From positions 1 through 64,000 of the forward strand of contig JAVUPY010000032.1 of NCBI GenBank assembly GCA_032252755.1: DNA of 64,000 bases, read 5' to 3'. How positions within the stretch are numbered: the first letter of the stretch is position 1; each line of letters begins with the position of its first letter. A program made the translations under genes and the position numbers. Origin of the DNA: Terriglobia bacterium (GTDB lineage Bacteria; Acidobacteriota; Terriglobia; Terriglobales; Acidobacteriaceae). This document shows, piece by piece, positions 42,490 through 51,530 of this stretch. The notes beneath the pieces are model-generated. The model was given only the letters and a program-made list of their open reading frames with translations. It ran no database searches and was not told where the DNA came from.

Positions 42490-42514
42490 AACTACGTTAA
42501 CAATTAACGTGGTT
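42490..42514. promoter_or_regulatory. Palindromic operator, probably for the MarR protein
   Basis: Arms AACTACGTTAA (42490-42500) and TTAACGTGGTT (42504-42514) are inverted with a single mismatch around CAA; the inner 7 bp are perfect. The site ends 6 nt before the marR ATG and follows the candidate promoter. Size and symmetry fit a dimeric winged-helix repressor, hence autoregulation. Confidence 0.6.
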
Positions 42515-42520
42515 AACCGT

Positions 42521-43102
42521 ATGCAAGGGCCGAACAGAACATTGATGGATCTTCTTGGAAGCGCTCATGTTTTTGCTTCGGCGCTCACGAATGTGCTGGA
42601 GCGAAAACTGATTGGACAGTTGTCCGAGGGGCTGCTCACTCCGACTCAGATTAAGGTCTTGCAACTCATATCTCGCACTGAAACTCATTGCATTGGAGAC
42701 GTCGCCGTTTTTCTTGACGTGAGCGATGCCGCGGCAAGCAAGACTGTCGAAAAGCTCGTAAGAGGCGGCTGGGTCAGAAGAATCGAGGCCAAGCCAGACC
42801 GTCGTGCGACAGACCTGTTCTTGACCAGTTCGGGAAAGAAGTTGCTGAAGGCCTATGACGCGGCCCGACTGCGAAGCATCTCTGCGATTTGCAGGGACAT
42901 GCGTAGCACCGAGATTCTCGAATTATCAAAGCGCCTGGATGTGCTATCGGCCCGGATCGTGAAGCACGTTGTACGCTCCGAGGATATCTGCCTGCAGTGC
43001 GGCATTCATTTGCGGGAGCGTTGCGTAATTCGTGAAGAGAGTGGAGACGTTTGCGCTTACCGTCGGACGAGGAATAAAGAGGAGTCGGTACAAAGGGCCT
43101 AG
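42521..43102 (+). CDS. MarR-family regulator with a C-terminal four-cysteine cluster
   Basis: 193 residues from the ATG at 42521. A winged helix-turn-helix of MarR type is at about 35-115 (LTPTQIKVLQLISR, HCIGDVAVFLDVSDAAASKTVEKLVRGGWVRRI, written in parts; the wing is KPDRRATDLFLTSSGKKLL). The dimerisation helices are at about 1-30 and 115-150. The tail adds Cys157, Cys160, Cys168 and Cys178 (CxxC-x7-C-x9-C), unusual for MarR and suitable for zinc, an iron-sulfur cluster or disulfide sensing. It is the first gene of the Hdr/hydrogenase operon, 28 nt before osmC, with a palindrome over its leader. I infer a redox- or metal-responsive repressor of this operon. Confidence 0.82.
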   Translation: MQGPNRTLMDLLGSAHVFASALTNVLERKLIGQLSEGLLTPTQIKVLQLISRTETHCIGDVAVFLDVSDAAASKTVEKLVRGGWVRRIEAKPDRRATDLFLTSSGKKLLKAYDAARLRSISAICRDMRSTEILELSKRLDVLSARIVKHVVRSEDICLQCGIHLRERCVIREESGDVCAYRRTRNKEESVQRA

Positions 43103-43130
43103 TTTCCAGAGATATGAACCGGAGGGCCTT

Positions 43131-43565
43131 ATGGAGAGATCGTCAGAAGCGCTCTGGAAGGTTGATTCGGTGATGGTGCACGCCGGAAGTGCGGAAGACG
43201 GCGCATCTTTCTTCTGTACGGGTGCCGGGTACTATCACTCCCTCTGCGAATACGCATGTGAGTCGCTGGCGCGTGCGGTTGCCTCGTGCATGTGTGTCGT
43301 CACCATGAAAGTGCTTAGCGGGCGGAGCCTCGCCCCCGACCAGTTGAAGGTAAAGGCCCGGGTACGTTTCGCTGAAGCTTCCCGCGAAGCCGAACTGGAT
43401 TCGATATACGTGAATGTAGTTGCAAGCGGTAGTGCCCTGACAGCCGATACGTTTCGAGAGATCGTTGAAGACGCACGGGCACATTGCCCGATTTGTCGTT
43501 TGTTGGAACAAAGAGTCTCCATTGAAGCGATGGTAGAACCGGAGCTTCAGCAAGCAAGAACGTAG
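43131..43565 (+). CDS. OsmC-family protein
   Basis: 144 residues from the ATG at 43131, which has GGAGGG upstream. OsmC/Ohr fold: the helix with the first active-site cysteine is LARAVASCMCVVTMKVL (Cys53). Beta strands follow (DQLKVKARVRF, DSIYVNVVASG), and the second cysteine is in the late helix ARAHCPICRLLE (Cys119). The pair Cys53/Cys119 matches the peroxidatic and resolving cysteines of OsmC-like thiol peroxidases, but the extra Cys55 and Cys122 are not standard. It lies in a redox operon between a thiol-rich regulator and heterodisulfide reductase genes. It may detoxify peroxides or handle a small thiol; inference. Confidence 0.75.
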   Translation: MERSSEALWKVDSVMVHAGSAEDGASFFCTGAGYYHSLCEYACESLARAVASCMCVVTMKVLSGRSLAPDQLKVKARVRFAEASREAELDSIYVNVVASGSALTADTFREIVEDARAHCPICRLLEQRVSIEAMVEPELQQART

Positions 43566-43721
43566 TCCAAATTGGACGCGCCTGCCAGTTCATCGGCACA
43601 GCACGAACACTCTCGCGTCCCAGGCCCCTTGGGTCGTCTTCCTTTTACGAAGCATTACGACTCGACGGTGCGGAATCTCTCGCCCGGTCGTCTTCGAGCG
43701 TCCGTCGACCAAGGACCGCCA

Positions 43722-44312
43722 ATGAAAATCCAACGGATCGTGAAGTTCGAGGTTGAACGTGACCCGAAGTTCGCCAAGTGGGTCAGCCAGACAGTCGGTG
43801 GCGAACGGATCCGCCATTGCCTCCAGTGTGGACTGTGTAGCGGCAGTTGCCCGCTCTCCCTCTACATGGATTACACCCCGCGCCGATTGATGCACCTCTC
43901 ACGCGAAGGTTTCAAAGAAGAGGTTTTGAGCAGCCTCACCATCTGGCTCTGCACTTGCTGCTACGCGTGCATGGTGGAGTGTCCGAAGAAGATCAATATC
44001 ACCCACATGATGTATGCCCTCAAAGAGCGTGCGATTACCGAGGGCTTCTATCCCAAGCGACTTCCAATGCCGGTGTTGGCACGGTCATTCGCACGCAGCA
44101 TTCGCAGGCATGGCCGAATCACCGAGAGCTGGCTGATTATGCGAGTCTTCCTCCAGACCGCGATTTTCAGGCTATTTGGCATGTCCAAGCTGGGGTTGCG
44201 CTTGATGCGTGCCGGCCGCATGCCTCTTATCCACGACAACGTCGCCAAAGTTGGTGACGTACGGAAGATGCTGGACACAGTCGTTGCTGCCGAGGAGGAG
44301 CTGGCCATATGA
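43722..44312 (+). CDS. hdrC: Heterodisulfide reductase subunit C (two [4Fe-4S] clusters)
   Basis: 196 residues from the ATG at 43722 with AAGGA upstream; a longer in-frame start at 43572 has none. Two ferredoxin-type cluster sites are present: CLQCGLCSGSCP (Cys33, 36, 39, 43) and CTCCYACMVECP (Cys77/79/80, 83, 87). The remainder is helical (HMMYALKERAITEG, then RRHGRITESWLIMRVFLQ), as in HdrC. It carries electrons between HdrA and the HdrB active site. It follows osmC by 156 nt and overlaps hdrB by 4 nt. A stand-alone ferredoxin-like protein is possible but the context argues for HdrC. Confidence 0.88.
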   Translation: MKIQRIVKFEVERDPKFAKWVSQTVGGERIRHCLQCGLCSGSCPLSLYMDYTPRRLMHLSREGFKEEVLSSLTIWLCTCCYACMVECPKKINITHMMYALKERAITEGFYPKRLPMPVLARSFARSIRRHGRITESWLIMRVFLQTAIFRLFGMSKLGLRLMRAGRMPLIHDNVAKVGDVRKMLDTVVAAEEELAI

Positions 44313-45187
44313 CCTACGCATACTTCCCCGGATGTTCGCTGCGCGGCACGGGCAAGGCATACGACGAATCCCTCGTAGCCGTGTTCCGTGCGCTAGATAT
44401 CGAAATGGAAGAGTTGCCGGACTGGAATTGCTGCGGCGCCACGACTTACATGTCGTTCGACGAGATTCAGTCTTACGCGCTCGCGGGGCGAAACCTTGCG
44501 ATCGCCGGTAAGATGAAACAGGATATCGTCGCTCCCTGCGCCGCTTGTTACCTGGTCCTCAATAAGACTCACTACTATGTGCACGACTACCCGCACATTC
44601 GTTACACCGTAGATAAAGCGCTGGCAAGCATCGGGTTGGAATACCAGGGGCAGGTCAAAGTCTTGCACCCATTGGAAATCCTCTTGAACGATTTCGGGTT
44701 GGCGAAGCTCAAATCGAAGGTGAAACGCCCGTTGCGGGAGTTCAAGGTTGCGCCCTATTACGGGTGCCAGATCGTGCGTCCTTATTCATTATTCGACAAC
44801 CAGCGAAATCCCACCTCGATGGACAAACTGCTCGAAGCATGCGGCGCCAAGGTCGTTTACTACCCGGTCAAGACACGTTGCTGCGGCGGCAGCCAGAAGG
44901 GCAGCCTGCCGGAGATCGGTTTGGACCTGATTTACTACCTGCTCAAGACAGCGGTGGACAACGGCGCCAACATTATTTCTGTTGCATGTCCGCTCTGCCA
45001 ATTCAACCTGGAAGCGTTCCAGAAGGAGGCGGCCCGGGATCGAGTCCGCCAGCCTCTCCCCATTGTTTACTTCACGCAGCTCATAGGCTTGGCTCTGGGA
45101 ATCGACGAACGGGCCTTGGGCCTGAATCGCGCACTCATCCCGTTGTCTGCAGCTCTGACCCGAAAGGAGGAGCTGGCACATGTCTGA
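44309..45187 (+). CDS. hdrB: Heterodisulfide reductase subunit B (CCG-domain catalytic subunit)
   Basis: 292 residues with two cysteine-rich CCG domains. The first has Cys9, Cys41-Cys42 and Cys77-x2-Cys80 (C-x31-CC-x34-CxxC). The second has GCQ, CCGG and CPLC. In methanogens these bind two non-cubane [4Fe-4S] clusters where the CoM-S-S-CoB disulfide is reduced. Bacteria lack those thiols, so the natural substrate here is unknown. It starts inside the end of hdrC (4-nt overlap) and ends 8 nt inside hdrA, consistent with a tightly coupled complex. Confidence 0.92.
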   Translation: MTYAYFPGCSLRGTGKAYDESLVAVFRALDIEMEELPDWNCCGATTYMSFDEIQSYALAGRNLAIAGKMKQDIVAPCAACYLVLNKTHYYVHDYPHIRYTVDKALASIGLEYQGQVKVLHPLEILLNDFGLAKLKSKVKRPLREFKVAPYYGCQIVRPYSLFDNQRNPTSMDKLLEACGAKVVYYPVKTRCCGGSQKGSLPEIGLDLIYYLLKTAVDNGANIISVACPLCQFNLEAFQKEAARDRVRQPLPIVYFTQLIGLALGIDERALGLNRALIPLSAALTRKEELAHV

Positions 45188-47174
45188 TCCGGGACTGGAT
45201 TGTCGGATTGGTGTTTACCTCTGCCATTGCGGAAGCAACATTGCCGCGACGGTCGATGTGATGGCACTCGCAGAGTATGCGCGAACCCTGCCGAACGTGG
45301 TGGTCGCCCGGGAATACAAATACATGTGTTCGGACCCGGGCCAGGAGCTCATCTGCACTGATATTGCTGATAAGAAGCTGAACCGCATCGTTGTTGCCGC
45401 GTGCTCGCCGATGCTGCACGAGAAGACGTTCCACAATGTCTTGAGCAGGGCCGGACTCAATCCGTTCTATCTGCAGTTCGTAAACATTCGGGAACACGTC
45501 TCATGGGTGCATCAGGACCACAAGGCCGCAACGGCGAAGGCTATGGACCTCGTACGCGCGGCGACGAGGCGTGTTGCACTTCATAAGAGTCTCGAAAAAC
45601 GGCGCGTACCGATCAATCCGAACGTTCTCGTGGTTGGTGGCGGGATTGCCGGAATTCACGCTGCACTCACCATGGCCGATGCCGGCAAACATGTGTACCT
45701 GGTGGAACGGGAGCCCACGATCGGCGGGCACATGGCAATGTTCGACAAAACCTTTCCGACCCTCGACTGCGCCGCCTGCATCCTCACGCCAAAGATGACG
45801 AGTGTCGGCTCCCATCCGAATATCTCGCTTTGGGCGTATTCGGAGGTCACGCAGGTGGAAGGCTACGTCGGCAACTATAAGGTTACGGTGTGCCGAAAGC
45901 CCCGCTACATTATCGAGGACTTGTGCGTCGGATGCCAGGAATGCATTACAGCCTGCATCTACAAAGAGGGCAAAACACCCGACGCTTTCAATCAAGGACT
46001 GAGTAAGCGCAAGCCCGTCTATCTTCCCTTCCCTCAGGCCATACCGCAGAAGGTCCTTATCGATCCTGATGCGTGCATCGAGTTCAAGACTGGGAAGTGC
46101 AAGAAGACATGCGTGGAGGCCTGCGCCGAACGCAACGCCATCGACTTCAAACAGCAAGAGAGCATCGAGGAGATCGACGTCGGGGCCATCATTCTCGCGA
46201 CCGGATTCCGGACCTTCGACGCACAACGAAATGCCTATTACGGGTACGGGCAGTACAAGAACGTATATACGTCGCTGGAAATCGAGCGTCTGATCAATGC
46301 CTCCGGGCCGACCAGTGGTGTGCTTCAGATGCGGGATGGACGCCAGCCACAATCGGTGGGGATTGTTCACTGCGTCGGTTCGCGCGATCAGAACACGAAT
46401 CGCTGGTGCTCGAAGGTGTGCTGCATGTACTCGCTCAAGTTGGCGCACCTTATCAAGGAGCGTACCGGGGCCGAGGTCTACAACTTCTATATCGACATGC
46501 GAACTCCCGGTAAGGGATATGAGGAGTTCTATGACAGGCTGCTCGATGAGGGTGTCCACTTTGTGCGGGGACGGGTAGCCGAGATATCCGATTGGCCGGC
46601 GCATCCGTCAGAAGAGGGCAAGCTCATCATTCGGGCCGAGGACACGCTGGCTGGCTTTGTCCGCCGCATTCCGGTGGACATGGTAGTGCTATCGGTCGGT
46701 CTTGAGCCGAAAGCCGACGCGCGAGATGTCGCCCGACTCTTCAACATGAGCTGCGCCAGCGAAGGCTGGTTCCTCGAGCGCCATCCGAAGCTGGCTCCGG
46801 TCAGCACCTTTACGGACGGCGTATTTATTGCGGGAGCCTGCCAGGGCCCGAAGGATATTCCCGAGACCGTCGCACAGGCGGGAGCCGCCGCCGCAGAAGT
46901 CATGGCACTGATCGATGCCGGCGAGATCGAACTCGATCCCTACACGGCATATGTGCTCGAAGAACACTGCTCGGGCTGCAAGACATGTATCCCAATGTGC
47001 CCGTACGGCGCAATTGCGTTCGATTCAGTGAAATCAAAGGCGAGCGTCAACGAGATACTCTGCAAGGGATGTGGAACTTGCGTTTCCGCGTGCCCGTCCG
47101 GATCGATCAACCAGAACTTTTTCGAAGACGAAGAGGTGTTTGCCGAGACAGAAGGAGTGCTGCTCCATGCCTAA
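45180..47174 (+). CDS. hdrA: Heterodisulfide reductase subunit A (FAD, multiple [4Fe-4S], bifurcating subunit)
   Basis: 664 residues, the typical HdrA length. The N-terminal domain has VYLCHCGSNIA, and the FAD-binding Rossmann motif is VLVVGGGIAGIHAAL near residue 145. It is followed by GGHMAMFDKTFPTLDCAACILTPKM, summarised as the DCAAC cluster region. Inserted ferredoxin domain: CVGCQECITAC. C-terminal ferredoxins: CSGCKTCIPMCP and CKGCGTCVSACP. No selenocysteine codon is needed. In known complexes HdrA is where hydrogen- or formate-derived electrons bifurcate to ferredoxin and HdrB. It overlaps both neighbours by 8 nt. Confidence 0.93.
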   Translation: MSDPGLDCRIGVYLCHCGSNIAATVDVMALAEYARTLPNVVVAREYKYMCSDPGQELICTDIADKKLNRIVVAACSPMLHEKTFHNVLSRAGLNPFYLQFVNIREHVSWVHQDHKAATAKAMDLVRAATRRVALHKSLEKRRVPINPNVLVVGGGIAGIHAALTMADAGKHVYLVEREPTIGGHMAMFDKTFPTLDCAACILTPKMTSVGSHPNISLWAYSEVTQVEGYVGNYKVTVCRKPRYIIEDLCVGCQECITACIYKEGKTPDAFNQGLSKRKPVYLPFPQAIPQKVLIDPDACIEFKTGKCKKTCVEACAERNAIDFKQQESIEEIDVGAIILATGFRTFDAQRNAYYGYGQYKNVYTSLEIERLINASGPTSGVLQMRDGRQPQSVGIVHCVGSRDQNTNRWCSKVCCMYSLKLAHLIKERTGAEVYNFYIDMRTPGKGYEEFYDRLLDEGVHFVRGRVAEISDWPAHPSEEGKLIIRAEDTLAGFVRRIPVDMVVLSVGLEPKADARDVARLFNMSCASEGWFLERHPKLAPVSTFTDGVFIAGACQGPKDIPETVAQAGAAAAEVMALIDAGEIELDPYTAYVLEEHCSGCKTCIPMCPYGAIAFDSVKSKASVNEILCKGCGTCVSACPSGSINQNFFEDEEVFAETEGVLLHA

Positions 47175-47646
47175 CGGTCAAGAAGATGCCACAACGGTGT
47201 TTGAGCCCAGGATCGTAGCGTTCTTCTGCAACTGGTGTACGTACCTGGCGTCCGATCTGGCGGGCAGTTCCCGAATGAAGTATCCGCCGAATTCGTGCGT
47301 CATCCGCCTGATGTGTTCCGGCAGGGTGGATCCGCAATTCATTCTGAATGCATTTGCGCACGGGGCTGACGGTGTCCTGATCGGCGGGTGCCATCCCGGC
47401 GATTGTCACTACCGCGAAGGCAATTACAAGGCACTTCGCCGGTTCCGGCTGTTGCGCAGGATGCTCGTCAAGATGGGGATTGAAGAGGAGCGGGTCCGAC
47501 TGGAATGGATTTCGGCGGCGGAAGCGGATCGTGTTCGTGATGTCATTCGTGAAATGGTCGGCAAGATCCGCGAACTTGGCCCGCTGAAGCTTGACCTCGT
47601 TCCAAAAGCAGAAATGACAAAAGCGGAGGAACTGATCCATGCCTGA
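47167..47646 (+). CDS. mvhD: MvhD-like hydrogenase iron-sulfur subunit (electron link to HdrA)
   Basis: 159 residues from the ATG at 47167, inside the end of hdrA. MvhD motifs: FFCNWCTYLASD, VIRLMCSGRVDPQFIL, GADGVLIGGCHPGDCHY and GNYKALRRFRLLRRML. The cysteines bind the [2Fe-2S] cluster that passes electrons from MvhG to HdrA. It is separate from HdrA rather than fused as in some sulfate reducers. It overlaps the next gene by 8 nt. Confidence 0.92.
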   Translation: MPNGQEDATTVFEPRIVAFFCNWCTYLASDLAGSSRMKYPPNSCVIRLMCSGRVDPQFILNAFAHGADGVLIGGCHPGDCHYREGNYKALRRFRLLRRMLVKMGIEEERVRLEWISAAEADRVRDVIREMVGKIRELGPLKLDLVPKAEMTKAEELIHA

Positions 47647-48610
47647 CAAGCCGAAGATCGCTCTGTACTGGTGCGCGTCGTGTGGAGGATGTGACGAGGC
47701 GGTCGTGGATCTCGCCGAGGGCGTATTGACGCTGACGGATGCTGTTGACATTGCTTTCTGGCCGGTGGCTCTCGATGGCAAACGGAGCGATGTTGAAAAT
47801 CTTGCCGACGGAGGCTTGCTGGCAACTCTGATCAACGGGGCTGTCCGTAATTCCGAGCAGGAAGAAATGGCGCATCTCCTTCGTGCCAAATCGCAGTACA
47901 TAATTGCGTTCGGGGCATGCGCTCACCTGGGAGGAATTCCCGGGTTGGCGAATCTCTATTCGAGCCAGGACATCCTCTCAGCGGCCTTCAACGATTCACC
48001 AACCACGGAGCCAGACGCGGTGTTGCCGCGCACGAACACACTCGACGAGATGCACGCGCTGGGCCTGCCCGAGTTCCGCGAAACGGTAAAGACGCTCGAC
48101 CAGGTTATTGCGGTGGACTACTACATCCCCGGATGCCCTCCCAGCCGAAAAGTCGTATCCGAGGCCTTGCGGGCGCTCGTCTCCGGCGAACTGCCCGATC
48201 GGGGAACTGTTCTCGCTCCCAATATTGCCCTTTGCGAAGAGTGCCCGCGGAAAGAGAGTAAGCCGGAGAAACTCTCGCTGGAATCGCTTCACCGAACCTA
48301 TGGAATCGAGATCGATCCGGAGAAGTGCCTGCTTGCGCAAGGGATCGTGTGCCTGGGGATGGGTACACGCGCCGGGTGCGATGCGGCATGTATTCGCGGA
48401 AATATGCCGTGCACGGGATGTTTCGGCCCCAGCGACAGGGTGCGAGACCAAGGGGCAAAACTTTTGTCGGCATTGGCGTCGAGTTTGTCCGCGACCGAGA
48501 CAGAAGCTATCGATTTGGCGCTCGCTGAACTTCCCGACGAGGTCGGAACATTCTATCGGTATAGCTTGCCGGGATCCTTGCTGCAGAGAGCGTTAGTGCA
48601 TTCGAAATAG
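47639..48610 (+). CDS. mvhG: [NiFe] hydrogenase small subunit, MvhG-like
   Basis: 323 residues without a signal peptide, so cytoplasmic. The proximal cluster region starts CASCGGCDEAV near residue 12. FGACAHLGGIPGLANL and IPGCPPSRKVVSEALRALV complete the small-subunit core. The C-terminal clusters use CEECPRK, KCLLAQGIVC, GCDAAC and CTGC. This is the F420-non-reducing (group 3c, Mvh) type, relaying electrons from the Ni-Fe site to MvhD. It lies 23 nt before the large-subunit gene. Confidence 0.9.
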   Translation: MPDKPKIALYWCASCGGCDEAVVDLAEGVLTLTDAVDIAFWPVALDGKRSDVENLADGGLLATLINGAVRNSEQEEMAHLLRAKSQYIIAFGACAHLGGIPGLANLYSSQDILSAAFNDSPTTEPDAVLPRTNTLDEMHALGLPEFRETVKTLDQVIAVDYYIPGCPPSRKVVSEALRALVSGELPDRGTVLAPNIALCEECPRKESKPEKLSLESLHRTYGIEIDPEKCLLAQGIVCLGMGTRAGCDAACIRGNMPCTGCFGPSDRVRDQGAKLLSALASSLSATETEAIDLALAELPDEVGTFYRYSLPGSLLQRALVHSK

Positions 48611-48633
48611 CCGTTGAATCGTGGAGGGTGGAA

Positions 48634-50157
48634 ATGTCTCACGCAACGATCGAGCCCGTTGGAAAAGGCGAGAAGAAGACGATCACCATCGACCCCATTA
48701 CCCGTCTTGAAGGCCACGGAAAAATATCTATATTTCTTGACGATGCCGGAGAAGTCGAACGAGCGTACTTCCAGGTTCCCGAGCTTCGTGGGTTCGAGAA
48801 GTTCGTCCAGGGGCGACCGGCAGAGGAGATGCCGCAGATCACGTCAAGGATTTGCGGGGTGTGTCCGATGGCGCATCACATGGCCGCAACGAAGGCTTTG
48901 GATGCTGTTTTCCACGTTACGCCACCCCGTGCTGCGCACCTGATTCGGGAACTCGCGTACTCCATCTTCTACATCGAAGACCACCTGCTGCACTTCTTCT
49001 TCCTCGGAGGACCGGACCTGATCGTCGGCCCGGACGCGCCTTCGGCAGAACGCAACGTCCTTGGGGTAATAAAGGTGCTGGGGATCGATGCTGCCAGGAA
49101 GGTTATTTCGACCCGCCAGCAATTGCGGGATTTGAACGTTGAGATTGCTGGAAAGGCGATTCACCCCGTGTTCGGGTTGCCGGGTGGAGTGTCAAAGGCT
49201 CTGGGTGCCGAAACTATCGCCAAGGCTAAAGAACTCGCGCGCGAAGCCAAAGATTTCACGTTGAGTGTTCTGGATATCTTCGAGAACAAACTCTTCCCGG
49301 TTTATGCGGACGCGATCAAGTCTGACGGTTACACACACGCAACCTATTACATGGGCCTGGTTGACCATGAGAATCGGCCGAACTTCTACGACGGCGAAGC
49401 GCGAATCGTCGGTCCCGATGGACGGGAATGGAAACGGTTCCGCGGCATGGATTACCTGAACGTCGTTGCCGAGCACGTCGAGCCCTGGAGTTACGTCAAG
49501 TTCTGCTACCTGAAGCCCATTGGCTGGAAAGGTTTTCAGGATGGCGCAGAAAGCGGAGTTTACAGTGTGGCCCCACTGGCGCGACTCAATGTCGCGGAGA
49601 AGATGGCGACGCCACTTGCACAGGCAGCACTCGAACGGTACCGGTCGACATTTGGGGCAAGGATCGTTCATCACACGCTTGCCAACCACTGGGCACGGCT
49701 GATCGAAACTATCTATGCGTCGGAACGGATGGCCGAAATAGCCGCCGATCCGGAGATCGCCGATCGCCACGTCCGTACTATCCCAACGGAGAAGCCGACT
49801 GAAGGTGTGGGAATCGTCGAAGCGCCGAGAGGAACATTAATTCATCACTACAAGACCGACGAGCGCGGCATCATAACCAACGCCAACCTTATTGTTGCGA
49901 CGCAGCACAATGCCGCACGAATTGCCATGAGCGTCGACAGGGCCGCGAAGGACCTTATTCATAGAGGAATCGTGACCGACGGGATCCTGAACCGAGTCGA
50001 GATGGCGTTCCGCGCCTACGACCCGTGTAATGGGTGCGCAACTCACGCCATCGGTCAGGCAATGCCAATCTTTATAGAGGTCAGGGGCAAACATGGGAAC
50101 CTGATCGAGACTCTGGAACGTGATGTGAACGGGACGGTCCGCAGGACTATATTTTAG
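48634..50157 (+). CDS. mvhA: [NiFe] hydrogenase large subunit, MvhA-like (group 3c)
   Basis: 507 residues from the ATG at 48634 with GGAGGG upstream. The nickel ligands are in L1 RICGVCPMAHH (Cys74, Cys77) and L2 DPCNGCATH (Cys465, Cys468, His471). RLEGHGK near residue 25 is the conserved N-terminal motif. L2 more often reads DPCxSCxxH, and here the serine position is glycine. A 36-residue tail follows His471; large-subunit tails are normally removed by a maturation protease. No such protease or hyp gene lies in the window. With MvhD/G and HdrABC it should oxidise H2 in the cytoplasm. Confidence 0.92.
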   Translation: MSHATIEPVGKGEKKTITIDPITRLEGHGKISIFLDDAGEVERAYFQVPELRGFEKFVQGRPAEEMPQITSRICGVCPMAHHMAATKALDAVFHVTPPRAAHLIRELAYSIFYIEDHLLHFFFLGGPDLIVGPDAPSAERNVLGVIKVLGIDAARKVISTRQQLRDLNVEIAGKAIHPVFGLPGGVSKALGAETIAKAKELAREAKDFTLSVLDIFENKLFPVYADAIKSDGYTHATYYMGLVDHENRPNFYDGEARIVGPDGREWKRFRGMDYLNVVAEHVEPWSYVKFCYLKPIGWKGFQDGAESGVYSVAPLARLNVAEKMATPLAQAALERYRSTFGARIVHHTLANHWARLIETIYASERMAEIAADPEIADRHVRTIPTEKPTEGVGIVEAPRGTLIHHYKTDERGIITNANLIVATQHNAARIAMSVDRAAKDLIHRGIVTDGILNRVEMAFRAYDPCNGCATHAIGQAMPIFIEVRGKHGNLIETLERDVNGTVRRTIF

Positions 50158-50187
50158 TCCTGAACGTACCCGTTCCAAGGAGGCCTC

Positions 50188-51276
50188 ATGCTGGCAAAGA
50201 TGAAAGGCCTGAGCTTTTGGCGAGTCTTCCTCGTCGTGGTCGTCCTTGCCGGCACTGCGGCATACATCGTCGATCGCGTTCGCGGCTATCCATTCCATCT
50301 CTATGAAGTGTTTCCGTGGGATATCTCCGCGACACTGAACATCTTCTGCGGTCTCTCACTCGCCGCAGCGGGCATGACCATTGCGGCGGTGCTCGCAGTT
50401 CTGGAACTCTCCGAATATCGATTGCTGCGAACAACCAGCCTGGTCATCGCTTATCTCGGTTTTGTGTGCGCACTGATCGCAAGCATTCTGCGATATCGCC
50501 TGGACTGGAATACTGTCTGGAGTCTGTGGTCGCCGCATTCGATTCCTGCCGGCGCTGGGGTAGCCCTCGTGCTGTATTCCGTCATCCTCCTGGACGACAT
50601 CTACTCGGCGCGTCGGAACCGGCCCGGGAGCGAATTTGTACGACTTCCCGCGGTTCGCTACGTGGCGATGTTATTGACGTGTATTGCCGCATTCGTGGCT
50701 GGTCTCCAGGAATCCGCCTTCCTCAACGTCATGGCAGTCGCGCCAGACCGCTTTTCTCCCATCTGGGTGAGCGCCATGTTACCCGTGAATGCGTTTCTCT
50801 CTGGCGTATCTGCCTGTCTCGCGCTGATGGTCTTCTCTTTCTGGCGTTTCGGTAGCTCGACAAGCAAAGTGGCAGAACCGCTGACGGTCGCCGCCATCGC
50901 TCTTCGTGTCGTTTTGATTGTGACGATCGGGATGCGAATACTTGAGCTCACCGATATGCACCAGTGGCACAATCTGGCAAGCAATCACTTGTATGGTTAC
51001 CTGTTCGGGCTGGAACTCGTCCTCTTTCTCACGCCCGCCCTGTTTCTTCTGAACGCACGAAAGGGCGAGTATCGACTGGTGTCGGAAAGCAGCCTGATGG
51101 TGATTGCTGGATTTGTCACGAATCGCCTCAACACGACCATCACCTCTCGCGAGATCGTGACAGGCACATCCTTCGAGCCGAGATTCTCCGACATGATCTT
51201 CGCGCTCGCATTGATCGCCCTGGCCACAGCCGCATTCGTGTACACGATGAAGCGCCGGTTGGAATCCCACGCGTAA
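50188..51276 (+). CDS. NrfD/HybB-like integral membrane protein
   Basis: 362 residues with about 9-10 predicted membrane helices, beginning FWRVFLVVVVLAGTAAYIVD. The pattern of small-residue helices and the segment FCGLSLAAAGMTIAAVLAVLEL, here the second helix, fits the NrfD/PsrC/HybB family. That family transfers electrons or protons between iron-sulfur subunits and the quinone pool. The ATG has AAGGAGG 7 nt upstream, and the gene is 30 nt after mvhA, so it belongs to the same operon. Mvh-Hdr complexes are usually soluble, so a membrane partner is notable. Similarity is by topology and a few motifs, so the assignment is tentative. Confidence 0.65.
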   Translation: MLAKMKGLSFWRVFLVVVVLAGTAAYIVDRVRGYPFHLYEVFPWDISATLNIFCGLSLAAAGMTIAAVLAVLELSEYRLLRTTSLVIAYLGFVCALIASILRYRLDWNTVWSLWSPHSIPAGAGVALVLYSVILLDDIYSARRNRPGSEFVRLPAVRYVAMLLTCIAAFVAGLQESAFLNVMAVAPDRFSPIWVSAMLPVNAFLSGVSACLALMVFSFWRFGSSTSKVAEPLTVAAIALRVVLIVTIGMRILELTDMHQWHNLASNHLYGYLFGLELVLFLTPALFLLNARKGEYRLVSESSLMVIAGFVTNRLNTTITSREIVTGTSFEPRFSDMIFALALIALATAAFVYTMKRRLESHA

Positions 51277-51441: not shown

Positions 51442-51530
51442 GCCGGGATGGCGAAACTGGCAGACGCAGCGGACTTAAAATCCGCAGGCCCGAAAGGGCT
51501 GTGGGGGTTCAAGTCCCCCTCCCGGCACCA
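51442..51530 (+). tRNA. tRNA-Leu (anticodon TAA)
   Basis: 89 nt including an encoded CCA end. Acceptor GCCGGGA pairs with TCCCGGC. The anticodon stem GCGGA/TCCGC encloses loop CTTAAAA with anticodon TAA, reading UUA. A long variable arm (GGCCCGAAAGGGCTGT region) marks a class II tRNA, and the T arm is GGGGGTTCAAGTCCCCC. It stands alone, on the same strand as the upstream operon. Confidence 0.95.

Follow-up and report, generated by a model that had tools for sequence, protein, structure and literature searches.

Where does a bacterial complex built like the hydrogenase-heterodisulfide reductase (Hdr) of methanogens send its electrons? The question is raised by contig 32 (JAVUPY010000032.1) of a Terriglobia bacterium (GenBank assembly GCA_032252755.1), of which we analysed positions 1 to 64,000, a stretch of 64,000 nucleotides (nt) hereafter called the window. 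One operon of this window encodes all six subunits of HdrABC-MvhDGA. To our knowledge, the methanogen disulfide CoM-S-S-CoB is not expected in bacteria, and the field has yet to settle which acceptor the bacterial HdrABC-Mvh complexes use in the cell. The Mvh-Hdr core is of a known kind and unsurprising by itself; what sets this operon apart is a dedicated NrfD-type membrane protein, without an iron-sulfur (Fe-S) partner, in an acidobacterium that bears the Dsr system. We tentatively favor, with slightly less than even confidence, a reading in which the operon encodes an H2-driven bifurcating Mvh-Hdr complex, whose low-potential branch would lead to ferredoxin and whose high-potential branch would lead, via NrfD, to the (mena)quinone pool. 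The statement of a first-pass annotation of this DNA that the electron acceptor is unknown remains true; the quinone route offered by the operon's own NrfD was not named there.

The Operon and Its Core Subunits

Eight genes, all on the + strand, follow marR (42521-43102); the first encodes an OsmC-like protein and the last an NrfD-type membrane protein:

43131..43565, + strand: OsmC-like protein (PF02566 37.4 bits, E 3.6e-9)
43722..44312, + strand: hdrC, with two 4Fe-4S motifs (ATG at 43722, in an open reading frame (ORF) that opens with TTG at 43572; CoB_CoM_SS_C 78.7 bits, Fer4_8 38.8 bits)
44309..45187, + strand: hdrB, with two CCG domains for non-cubane clusters (PF02754 in two stretches; CoB_CoM_SS_B 181.1 bits; alignment with 5odc_B)
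45180..47174, + strand: hdrA, the flavin adenine dinucleotide (FAD) subunit of bifurcating type, with inserted and C-terminal ferredoxin domains (HdrA2 840.8 bits; 705 bits to 5odc_A)
47167..47646, + strand: mvhD, the [2Fe-2S] linker (PF02662 / FlpD 181.2 bits)
47639..48610, + strand: mvhG, the hydrogenase small subunit (PF01058 79.8 bits; VhuG 210.8 bits)
48628..50157, + strand: mvhA, the [NiFe] hydrogenase large subunit, group-3c-like (PF00374 116.9 bits; VhuA 369 bits; tree of 48 rows)
50188..51276, + strand: NrfD/HybB/HmcC-type membrane protein, presumed to interact with quinone (HmcC 78 bits, E 8.2e-22; HybB 54.5 bits)

The six core genes are arranged in the order hdrC-hdrB-hdrA-mvhD-mvhG-mvhA, with successive overlaps of 4, 8, 8, and 8 nt and then a gap of 17 nt (23 nt if mvhA starts at the ATG at 48634). 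The gap between mvhA and nrfD is 30 nt, AAGGAGG lying immediately 5' of nrfD, and about 156 nt separate osmC from the ATG of hdrC. Profile matches and tight junctions bear out the first-pass reading of a complete Mvh-Hdr subunit set in a one-orientation operon after marR; its count of eight genes was right, and the OsmC-like first gene and NrfD-type last gene had been left unnamed.

The cofactor sites, which the same annotation had described as intact in HdrA, HdrB, MvhD, and both hydrogenase subunits, hold; for HdrA, HdrB, and MvhA this was seen in alignments with HdrABC-MvhAGD of Methanothermococcus thermolithotrophicus (5ODC). HdrB can be aligned with 5odc_B over residues 1-277 and keeps all ten cysteines of both CCG motifs. 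HdrA can be aligned with 5odc_A over residues 8-660, and its FAD, inserted ferredoxin, and C-terminal ferredoxin motifs are all present. In this alignment, K420 is the equivalent of Lys409, the lysine that an excerpt of PMC10734219 places beside the bifurcating flavin of HdrA. The two NiFe ligand pairs of MvhA are intact (RICGVC and DPCNGCATH), and MvhD, MvhG, and HdrC resemble the methanogen subunits by profile. Unlike the 5ODC system, the window operon is bacterial and carries the extra OsmC-like and NrfD genes, its MvhA falls in a separate bacterial clade, and its HdrA insert is spaced C-x7-C-x3-C-x3-C, a pattern found in 60 of 69 HdrA rows, the window among them (some contigs being represented by two rows).

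Lost cofactor residues or a sulfur-oxidising Hdr (sHdr) type would have spoken against the first-pass reading, and neither appeared, since the ligands are kept and HdrA matches HdrA2 over its full length. The mark of sHdr is an sHdr-type gene set that includes a lipoate-binding protein. The lipoate-binding domain was absent among the ten window proteins scanned; the exclusion of sHdr thus comes from a profile scan of these ten proteins, without sHdr reference sequences.

The Hydrogenase Type and Its Relatives

In the 48-row tree, the window MvhA stands within a 20-row bacterial clade (support 100/99), which is joined to the archaeal Mvh (5odc, 9sw2) by an 88/98 branch and lies apart from 7t2r and 5xf9, the references being five segments from the PDB only, with no HydDB set. 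Because distant paralogues sit among the archaeal rows on long branches, the join between bacterial and archaeal Mvh is of moderate strength. The branch of the window MvhA is itself rather long (0.58), and its nearest rows are Terriglobia. The same genome encodes a second NiFe hydrogenase on contig C17, the large subunit of which groups with 7t2r (100/99). On the comparison with group 3c that the first-pass annotation had proposed, the window MvhA groups with Mvh and not with this NuoF-linked second enzyme, and the tree rules out a hydrogenase linked to nicotinamide adenine dinucleotide (NAD). The NCBIfam profile VhuA is not type-specific, giving 369 bits with the window MvhA and 412.6 bits with the C17 protein. 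Judged by its sequence, the window MvhA is a bacterial group-3c-like hydrogenase. The locus of the second hydrogenase (L125, C17:7621-14034) includes a NuoF/glutamate-synthase-like fusion of 1053 residues.

We scanned a genome collection and found 131 places encoding a relative of MvhA, from which 80 loci were kept (L030-L109, mostly metagenome-assembled genomes (MAGs)). The same core occurs in Acidobacteriota, Gemmatimonadota, Verrucomicrobiota, Armatimonadota, Ignavibacteriota, and others, in many of them in the order hdrCBA-mvhDGA. Operons of this kind are thus widespread in uncultured bacteria, and the core is not new; these other bacterial operons share the core, and often its order, with the window, and NrfD and OsmC are seldom linked to them. 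A further sample comprised 399 genomes of the class Terriglobia, the host genome included, 23 of which have an MvhA match of at least 60% identity. No protease ORF was found 3' of the window mvhA, unlike other Terriglobia mvh operons, 17 of 20 of which carry a maturation-protease ORF at this place.

A Dedicated NrfD-Type Membrane Protein

The last gene of the operon is closest to the profiles HmcC of Desulfovibrio (78 bits) and HybB of E. coli hydrogenase-2 (54.5 bits). Both scores are below the equivalog cut-offs, so these two names are not claimed, and the protein gave no match in Pfam or among PDB sequences. Its AlphaFold2 model (mean pLDDT 77.6, pTM 0.78) resembles two subunits of alternative complex III (ACIII), ActC and ActF (best TM-score 0.71, E 1.7e-6); PsrC with bound menaquinone is a weaker match (E 1.4e-3). 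By profile and predicted fold, it is an NrfD-family protein. Such subunits are described, in an excerpt of PMC8076601, as interacting with quinone without a redox cofactor of their own.

The NrfD proteins linked to mvh, i.e., that of the window and those of four other loci (L031, L034, L038, and L165), form one group against 23 other sequences in a tree of 28 rows (support 100/100, recovered in 99% of bootstrap trees). The group of five persists at 97/98 against 20 others when the ten next-best matches from the class are added (25 rows). Among the 399 class genomes, a score of at least 500 bits to a profile of this group is reached only by G290 and the host genome, the next score being 385; the linkage of NrfD to mvh is rare.

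These proteins also differ from other NrfDs in their company. A HybA-like Fe-S gene lies beside NrfD, or is fused with it, in all 26 loci L004-L029 (three of which belong to the host genome itself) and in all ten loci L192-L201; it was found at none of the five mvh-linked loci. The text excerpted from PMC8076601 has HybB working with the Fe-S protein HybA; no HybA-like gene, nor any 4Fe-4S ferredoxin-like partner, was found in the 16 kb around the window NrfD gene. Since the mvh-linked NrfDs are without this partner, their electron donor would most simply be the Hdr-Mvh complex.

Could the window instead hold an ordinary bacterial HdrABC-MvhDGA, with NrfD and OsmC as unrelated neighbors and with the acceptor of other bacterial group 3c complexes? 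In its favor, only 3 of the 80 loci have a linked NrfD and 5 a linked OsmC (20 being too short for the operon to be judged), and the spacing to both genes, given above, is looser than within the core. Nevertheless, nrfD is on the same strand, 30 nt after mvhA, with AAGGAGG just before it, and the mvh-linked NrfDs group together and lack the Fe-S partner. We consider such a chance neighborhood improbable. Among the literature matches listed, judged by title and start of abstract, none reports NrfD or OsmC as part of an mvh-hdr operon.

Several NrfD genes have a gene for a GcvH-domain protein (PF01597) beside them, namely those of L031 (13747-14535), L132 (9081-9800, - strand), and all ten loci L192-L201; in L031 and L132, this protein has a hydrophobic N-terminal stretch.

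Exchange of HdrBC for EtfAB-EtfD

On the high-potential side of HdrA, the operons vary. An automatic classification assigned a nearby HdrB to 39 of the 80 loci, an EtfD-like protein in its place to 7, both to 2, and neither to 12, with 20 too short. Twenty Terriglobia neighborhoods of mvhA matches at 60% identity or more divide into 7 with HdrB, 8 with HdrX-EtfB-EtfA-EtfD, 2 with both, and 3 too short; some are apparently the same contigs as among the 80 loci (e.g., L163 and L032), which makes the two counts partly dependent on each other. EtfB and EtfA of L034 and L032 are electron transfer flavoprotein (ETF) subunits; HdrX there combines 4Fe-4S with two CCG stretches, and a membrane protein carries 4Fe-4S and CCG domains. 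In L034, the latter matches 9ojn_A with 252.7 bits (best stretch 320-649), 9OJN being the structure of the EtfD of M. smegmatis (excerpt of PMC13083937). The same excerpt describes the soluble part of mycobacterial EtfD as homologous to HdrBC and the protein as thought to reduce menaquinone, and part of PMC10734219 describes EtfABCX as a flavin bifurcator with menaquinone (-74 mV) as its high-potential acceptor. Hence, in sister operons, EtfAB and an EtfD homologue stand in for HdrBC; unlike them, the window has HdrCB and NrfD and no ETF. NrfD follows operons of both kinds, those with HdrB (L165, L031) and one with EtfD (L034).

HdrX-EtfB-EtfA-EtfD replaces HdrC-HdrB before HdrA-MvhDGA in L032/L163, L034, L036, L043/L170, L167, L175, L176, L181, and others; this ETF variant of the H2-linked operon was seen in Terriglobia and in one Acidimicrobiia MAG.

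A Proposed Route to the Quinone Pool

The exchange with EtfAB/EtfD, the presence of NrfD after both kinds of operon, and the absence of dsrA in relatives (see below) lead us to favor the quinone pool as the high-potential acceptor. We propose that H2 would be oxidized reversibly in the cytoplasm at the NiFe site of MvhA and that its electrons would pass through the Fe-S relay of MvhG and MvhD, as their residues suggest. They would then be split at the HdrA flavin, a step consistent with the kept residues and the solved homologue. The low-potential branch may reduce ferredoxin, the genome having genes of the POR family, and the high-potential branch would run through HdrC/HdrB, where the non-cubane cluster ligands are kept. 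From there, NrfD may pass some or all of the electrons to the (mena)quinone pool, as its linkage, grouping, and missing partner suggest, and it could tether to the membrane a complex that is otherwise soluble. In the host, respiration with oxygen or sulfate would then draw on the quinol.

Several observations weigh against this route. The window NrfD is very divergent, being 29-31% identical to the other four mvh-linked NrfDs (31% to the nearest). Its end branch measures 3.4 and 4.9 in the two trees and was flagged as long, which makes its position in the trees uncertain. The histidine of the family's LHQSS stretch is Q in the window, Y in L038, and C in L034, and is kept in L031 and L165. The sequences of L034 and L038 end close to the operon, and the absence of the Fe-S gene is therefore firm only for the window, L031, and L165. 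No NrfD was called in 18 of 20 Terriglobia mvh neighborhoods, so the complex can work without it, and in L175 the NrfD upstream of mvh scores like ordinary NrfDs. HdrB keeps all the cluster ligands of a disulfide reductase, and the host genome encodes DsrC. Finally, every core subunit, like the last gene, scores below the curated equivalog cut-off of NCBIfam, so the names CoB-CoM reductase and Vhu as such are not claimed.

A wider proposal, which we regard as somewhat more doubtful than the quinone route itself, is that this facultative acidobacterium with Dsr genes has, together with its relatives, an energy-converting hydrogenase of a new class. An Mvh-Hdr complex anchored by NrfD would reduce ferredoxin and menaquinone simultaneously with H2, possibly with ion movement through NrfD, and the quinone-facing side of one and the same HdrA-MvhDGA core would be built from either of two interchangeable modules, HdrB-HdrC or EtfAB-EtfD. 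If this is true, soil and peat Acidobacteriota could gain low-potential ferredoxin from H2 during respiration, and the added membrane protein may let a methanogen-type complex feed a respiratory chain instead of the methanogen disulfide. Because the operon carries a quinone-type subunit and its sisters show the ETF/EtfD exchange, the acceptor question (does H2 reduce ferredoxin and quinone?) is directly testable.

The Host Genome and DsrC as a Possible Acceptor

The first-pass annotation had placed the operon in an apparently aerobic-type background. This was not borne out: the genome (5.39 Mb, 99.98% complete, 3% contamination) has sat, aprBA, qmo-like, dsrABC, and dsrMK genes besides two matches to COX1-type oxidases, so such a description is incomplete. 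On C17, the profiles over cut-off are dsrA (588.2 bits), dsrB (516.6), dsrM (471.7), the start of dsrK (515.8 on 387 residues), dsrC with two C-terminal cysteines (121.2), aprA (903.4), aprB (203.4), and sat (477.5). A QmoC-like neighbor is below cut-off, as is a QmoB-like one called from HdrA2/VhuD matches; four further genes we take by eye to be QmoA, DsrO, DsrP, and DsrN. The host thus probably reduces sulfate or sulfite on a facultative basis. The excerpt of PMC6018796 describes a similar gene set in peatland Acidobacteria that combine dissimilatory sulfur metabolism with oxygen respiration and assigns the NiFe hydrogenases of their genomes to groups 1, 3, and 4; that of PMC9448743 specifies groups 3b and/or 3d for them, and group 3c is named for Acidobacteriota in part of PMC11245096.

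In such a host, the high-potential acceptor might be a trisulfide or disulfide of DsrC at HdrB, H2 then driving the reduction of both ferredoxin and DsrC in support of sulfite reduction. We consider this unlikely, though less so than the chance neighborhood above. The genome does encode DsrC with its two C-terminal cysteines, DsrAB, DsrM, DsrK, AprBA, Sat, and Qmo-like genes. Among the 399 genomes, 23 have mvhA (at least 60% identity), 20 have dsrA, and 6 have both, which is above expectation (Fisher P 0.0004; 0.002 without the host genome), in a test that ignores kinship. DsrC is kept as a candidate in this host because of FlxABCD-HdrABC of Desulfovibrio, for which such an acceptor has been proposed: an excerpt of PMC10553843 has a Flx-Hdr complex reduce both ferredoxin and DsrC, and the reference list of that paper includes a title on the direct interaction of DsrC with FlxABCD-HdrABC. 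The Desulfovibrio FlxABCD-HdrABC shares with the window HdrABC and a DsrC-encoding host; unlike it, the window would take electrons from H2 through Mvh and not from NADH through Flx. On the other hand, the operon and the dsr genes are on different contigs, and 17 of the 23 mvhA genomes (some incomplete) have no dsrA over cut-off, for which reason DsrC as a general acceptor was rejected. Two of these genomes, G290 and G343, are 100 and 99% complete, and their HdrB and HdrC rank within the six closest matches found; in two nearly complete genomes, an operon much like that of the window thus occurs without dsrA, and DsrC cannot serve as the general acceptor.

Tetranucleotide composition was used to ask whether the dsr genes might stem from contamination: the C17 pieces (n=3) correlate with the two window flanks at 0.88-0.94, compared with 0.71-0.85 for five other acidobacterial loci, which gives no sign of contamination and is weak evidence. 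The dsr pieces also reach 0.87-0.88 with L031, L167, and L172, and between the operon and the ten remaining pieces from the host genome the correlation is 0.82-0.90.

Of the genes that the first-pass annotation proposed to look for genome-wide, hyp genes are represented by hypD and one hydrogenase protease, the latter in a hyp cluster, and ferredoxin-dependent enzymes by four POR_N matches. Beside the protease lie two genes that we presume by eye to be hypF and hypE.

The C17 loci L126 and L127 form a sulfate- or sulfite-reduction island with sat, qmo-like genes, aprBA, dsrABC, a gene for a dsrL-like NAD(P)-binding protein, and dsrMK. An ORF of 85 residues on C17 resembles DsrD; with neither an NCBIfam nor a Pfam match, it is not claimed as such.

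OsmC, MarR, and the Upstream Palindrome

The first gene of the operon suggests another role, in which HdrB would reduce a bacillithiol disulfide or the OsmC-like protein itself and the operon would form a thiol or peroxide defence system powered by H2. Besides the window, six other loci have a linked OsmC-like gene (L030, L031, L032, L033, L048, and L165; L032 is apparently the same contig as L163, and several of these loci are near relatives of each other). Such a gene is present in five of the six loci whose HdrB scores above 405 bits (L030, L031, L033, L048, and L165, not L164), and bshC of bacillithiol synthesis is found in the host genome. The window protein has both OsmC cysteines; in L030 and L033, however, the first is serine, so a two-cysteine peroxidase cycle is not conserved across the linked loci and a canonical peroxidase of this type is weakened as a candidate. 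Moreover, OsmC also lies beside an operon in which HdrX-EtfBA-EtfD replaces HdrB (L032/L163). The bacillithiol idea of the first-pass annotation stays weak, for bshC is there and nothing connects bsh genes with the operon. A defence role appears to us quite unlikely, clearly less probable than DsrC reduction. Within the quinone route that we prefer, OsmC would be a thiol protein, possibly serving oxidative protection or disulfide shuttling.

Two features precede the operon:

42490..42514, no strand assigned: imperfect palindrome, a putative MarR operator (11-nt arms, 91% complementary, 3-nt spacer)
42521..43102, + strand: MarR-family regulator with a C-terminal four-cysteine tail (PF01047 39.6 bits)

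The tail of this regulator reads C-x2-C-x7-C-x9-C, and its four cysteines are kept in all five aligned operon-linked MarRs (window, L031, L036, L041, and L177). The sequence points to a possible metal or Fe-S sensor, and such a regulator might switch the operon by redox state. The palindrome ends 6 nt 5' of the marR start; TTAACGTGGTT also stands just 5' of marR in the Gemmatimonadales operon L041, as read by eye. A palindrome search upstream of marR returned none at L041, L031, and L177, and one unlike that of the window at L036. Promoter and terminator scans of the window gave no more than shuffled sequence did. The sole tRNA found in the window, tRNA-Leu(TAA), lies 3' of the operon at 51442-51530.

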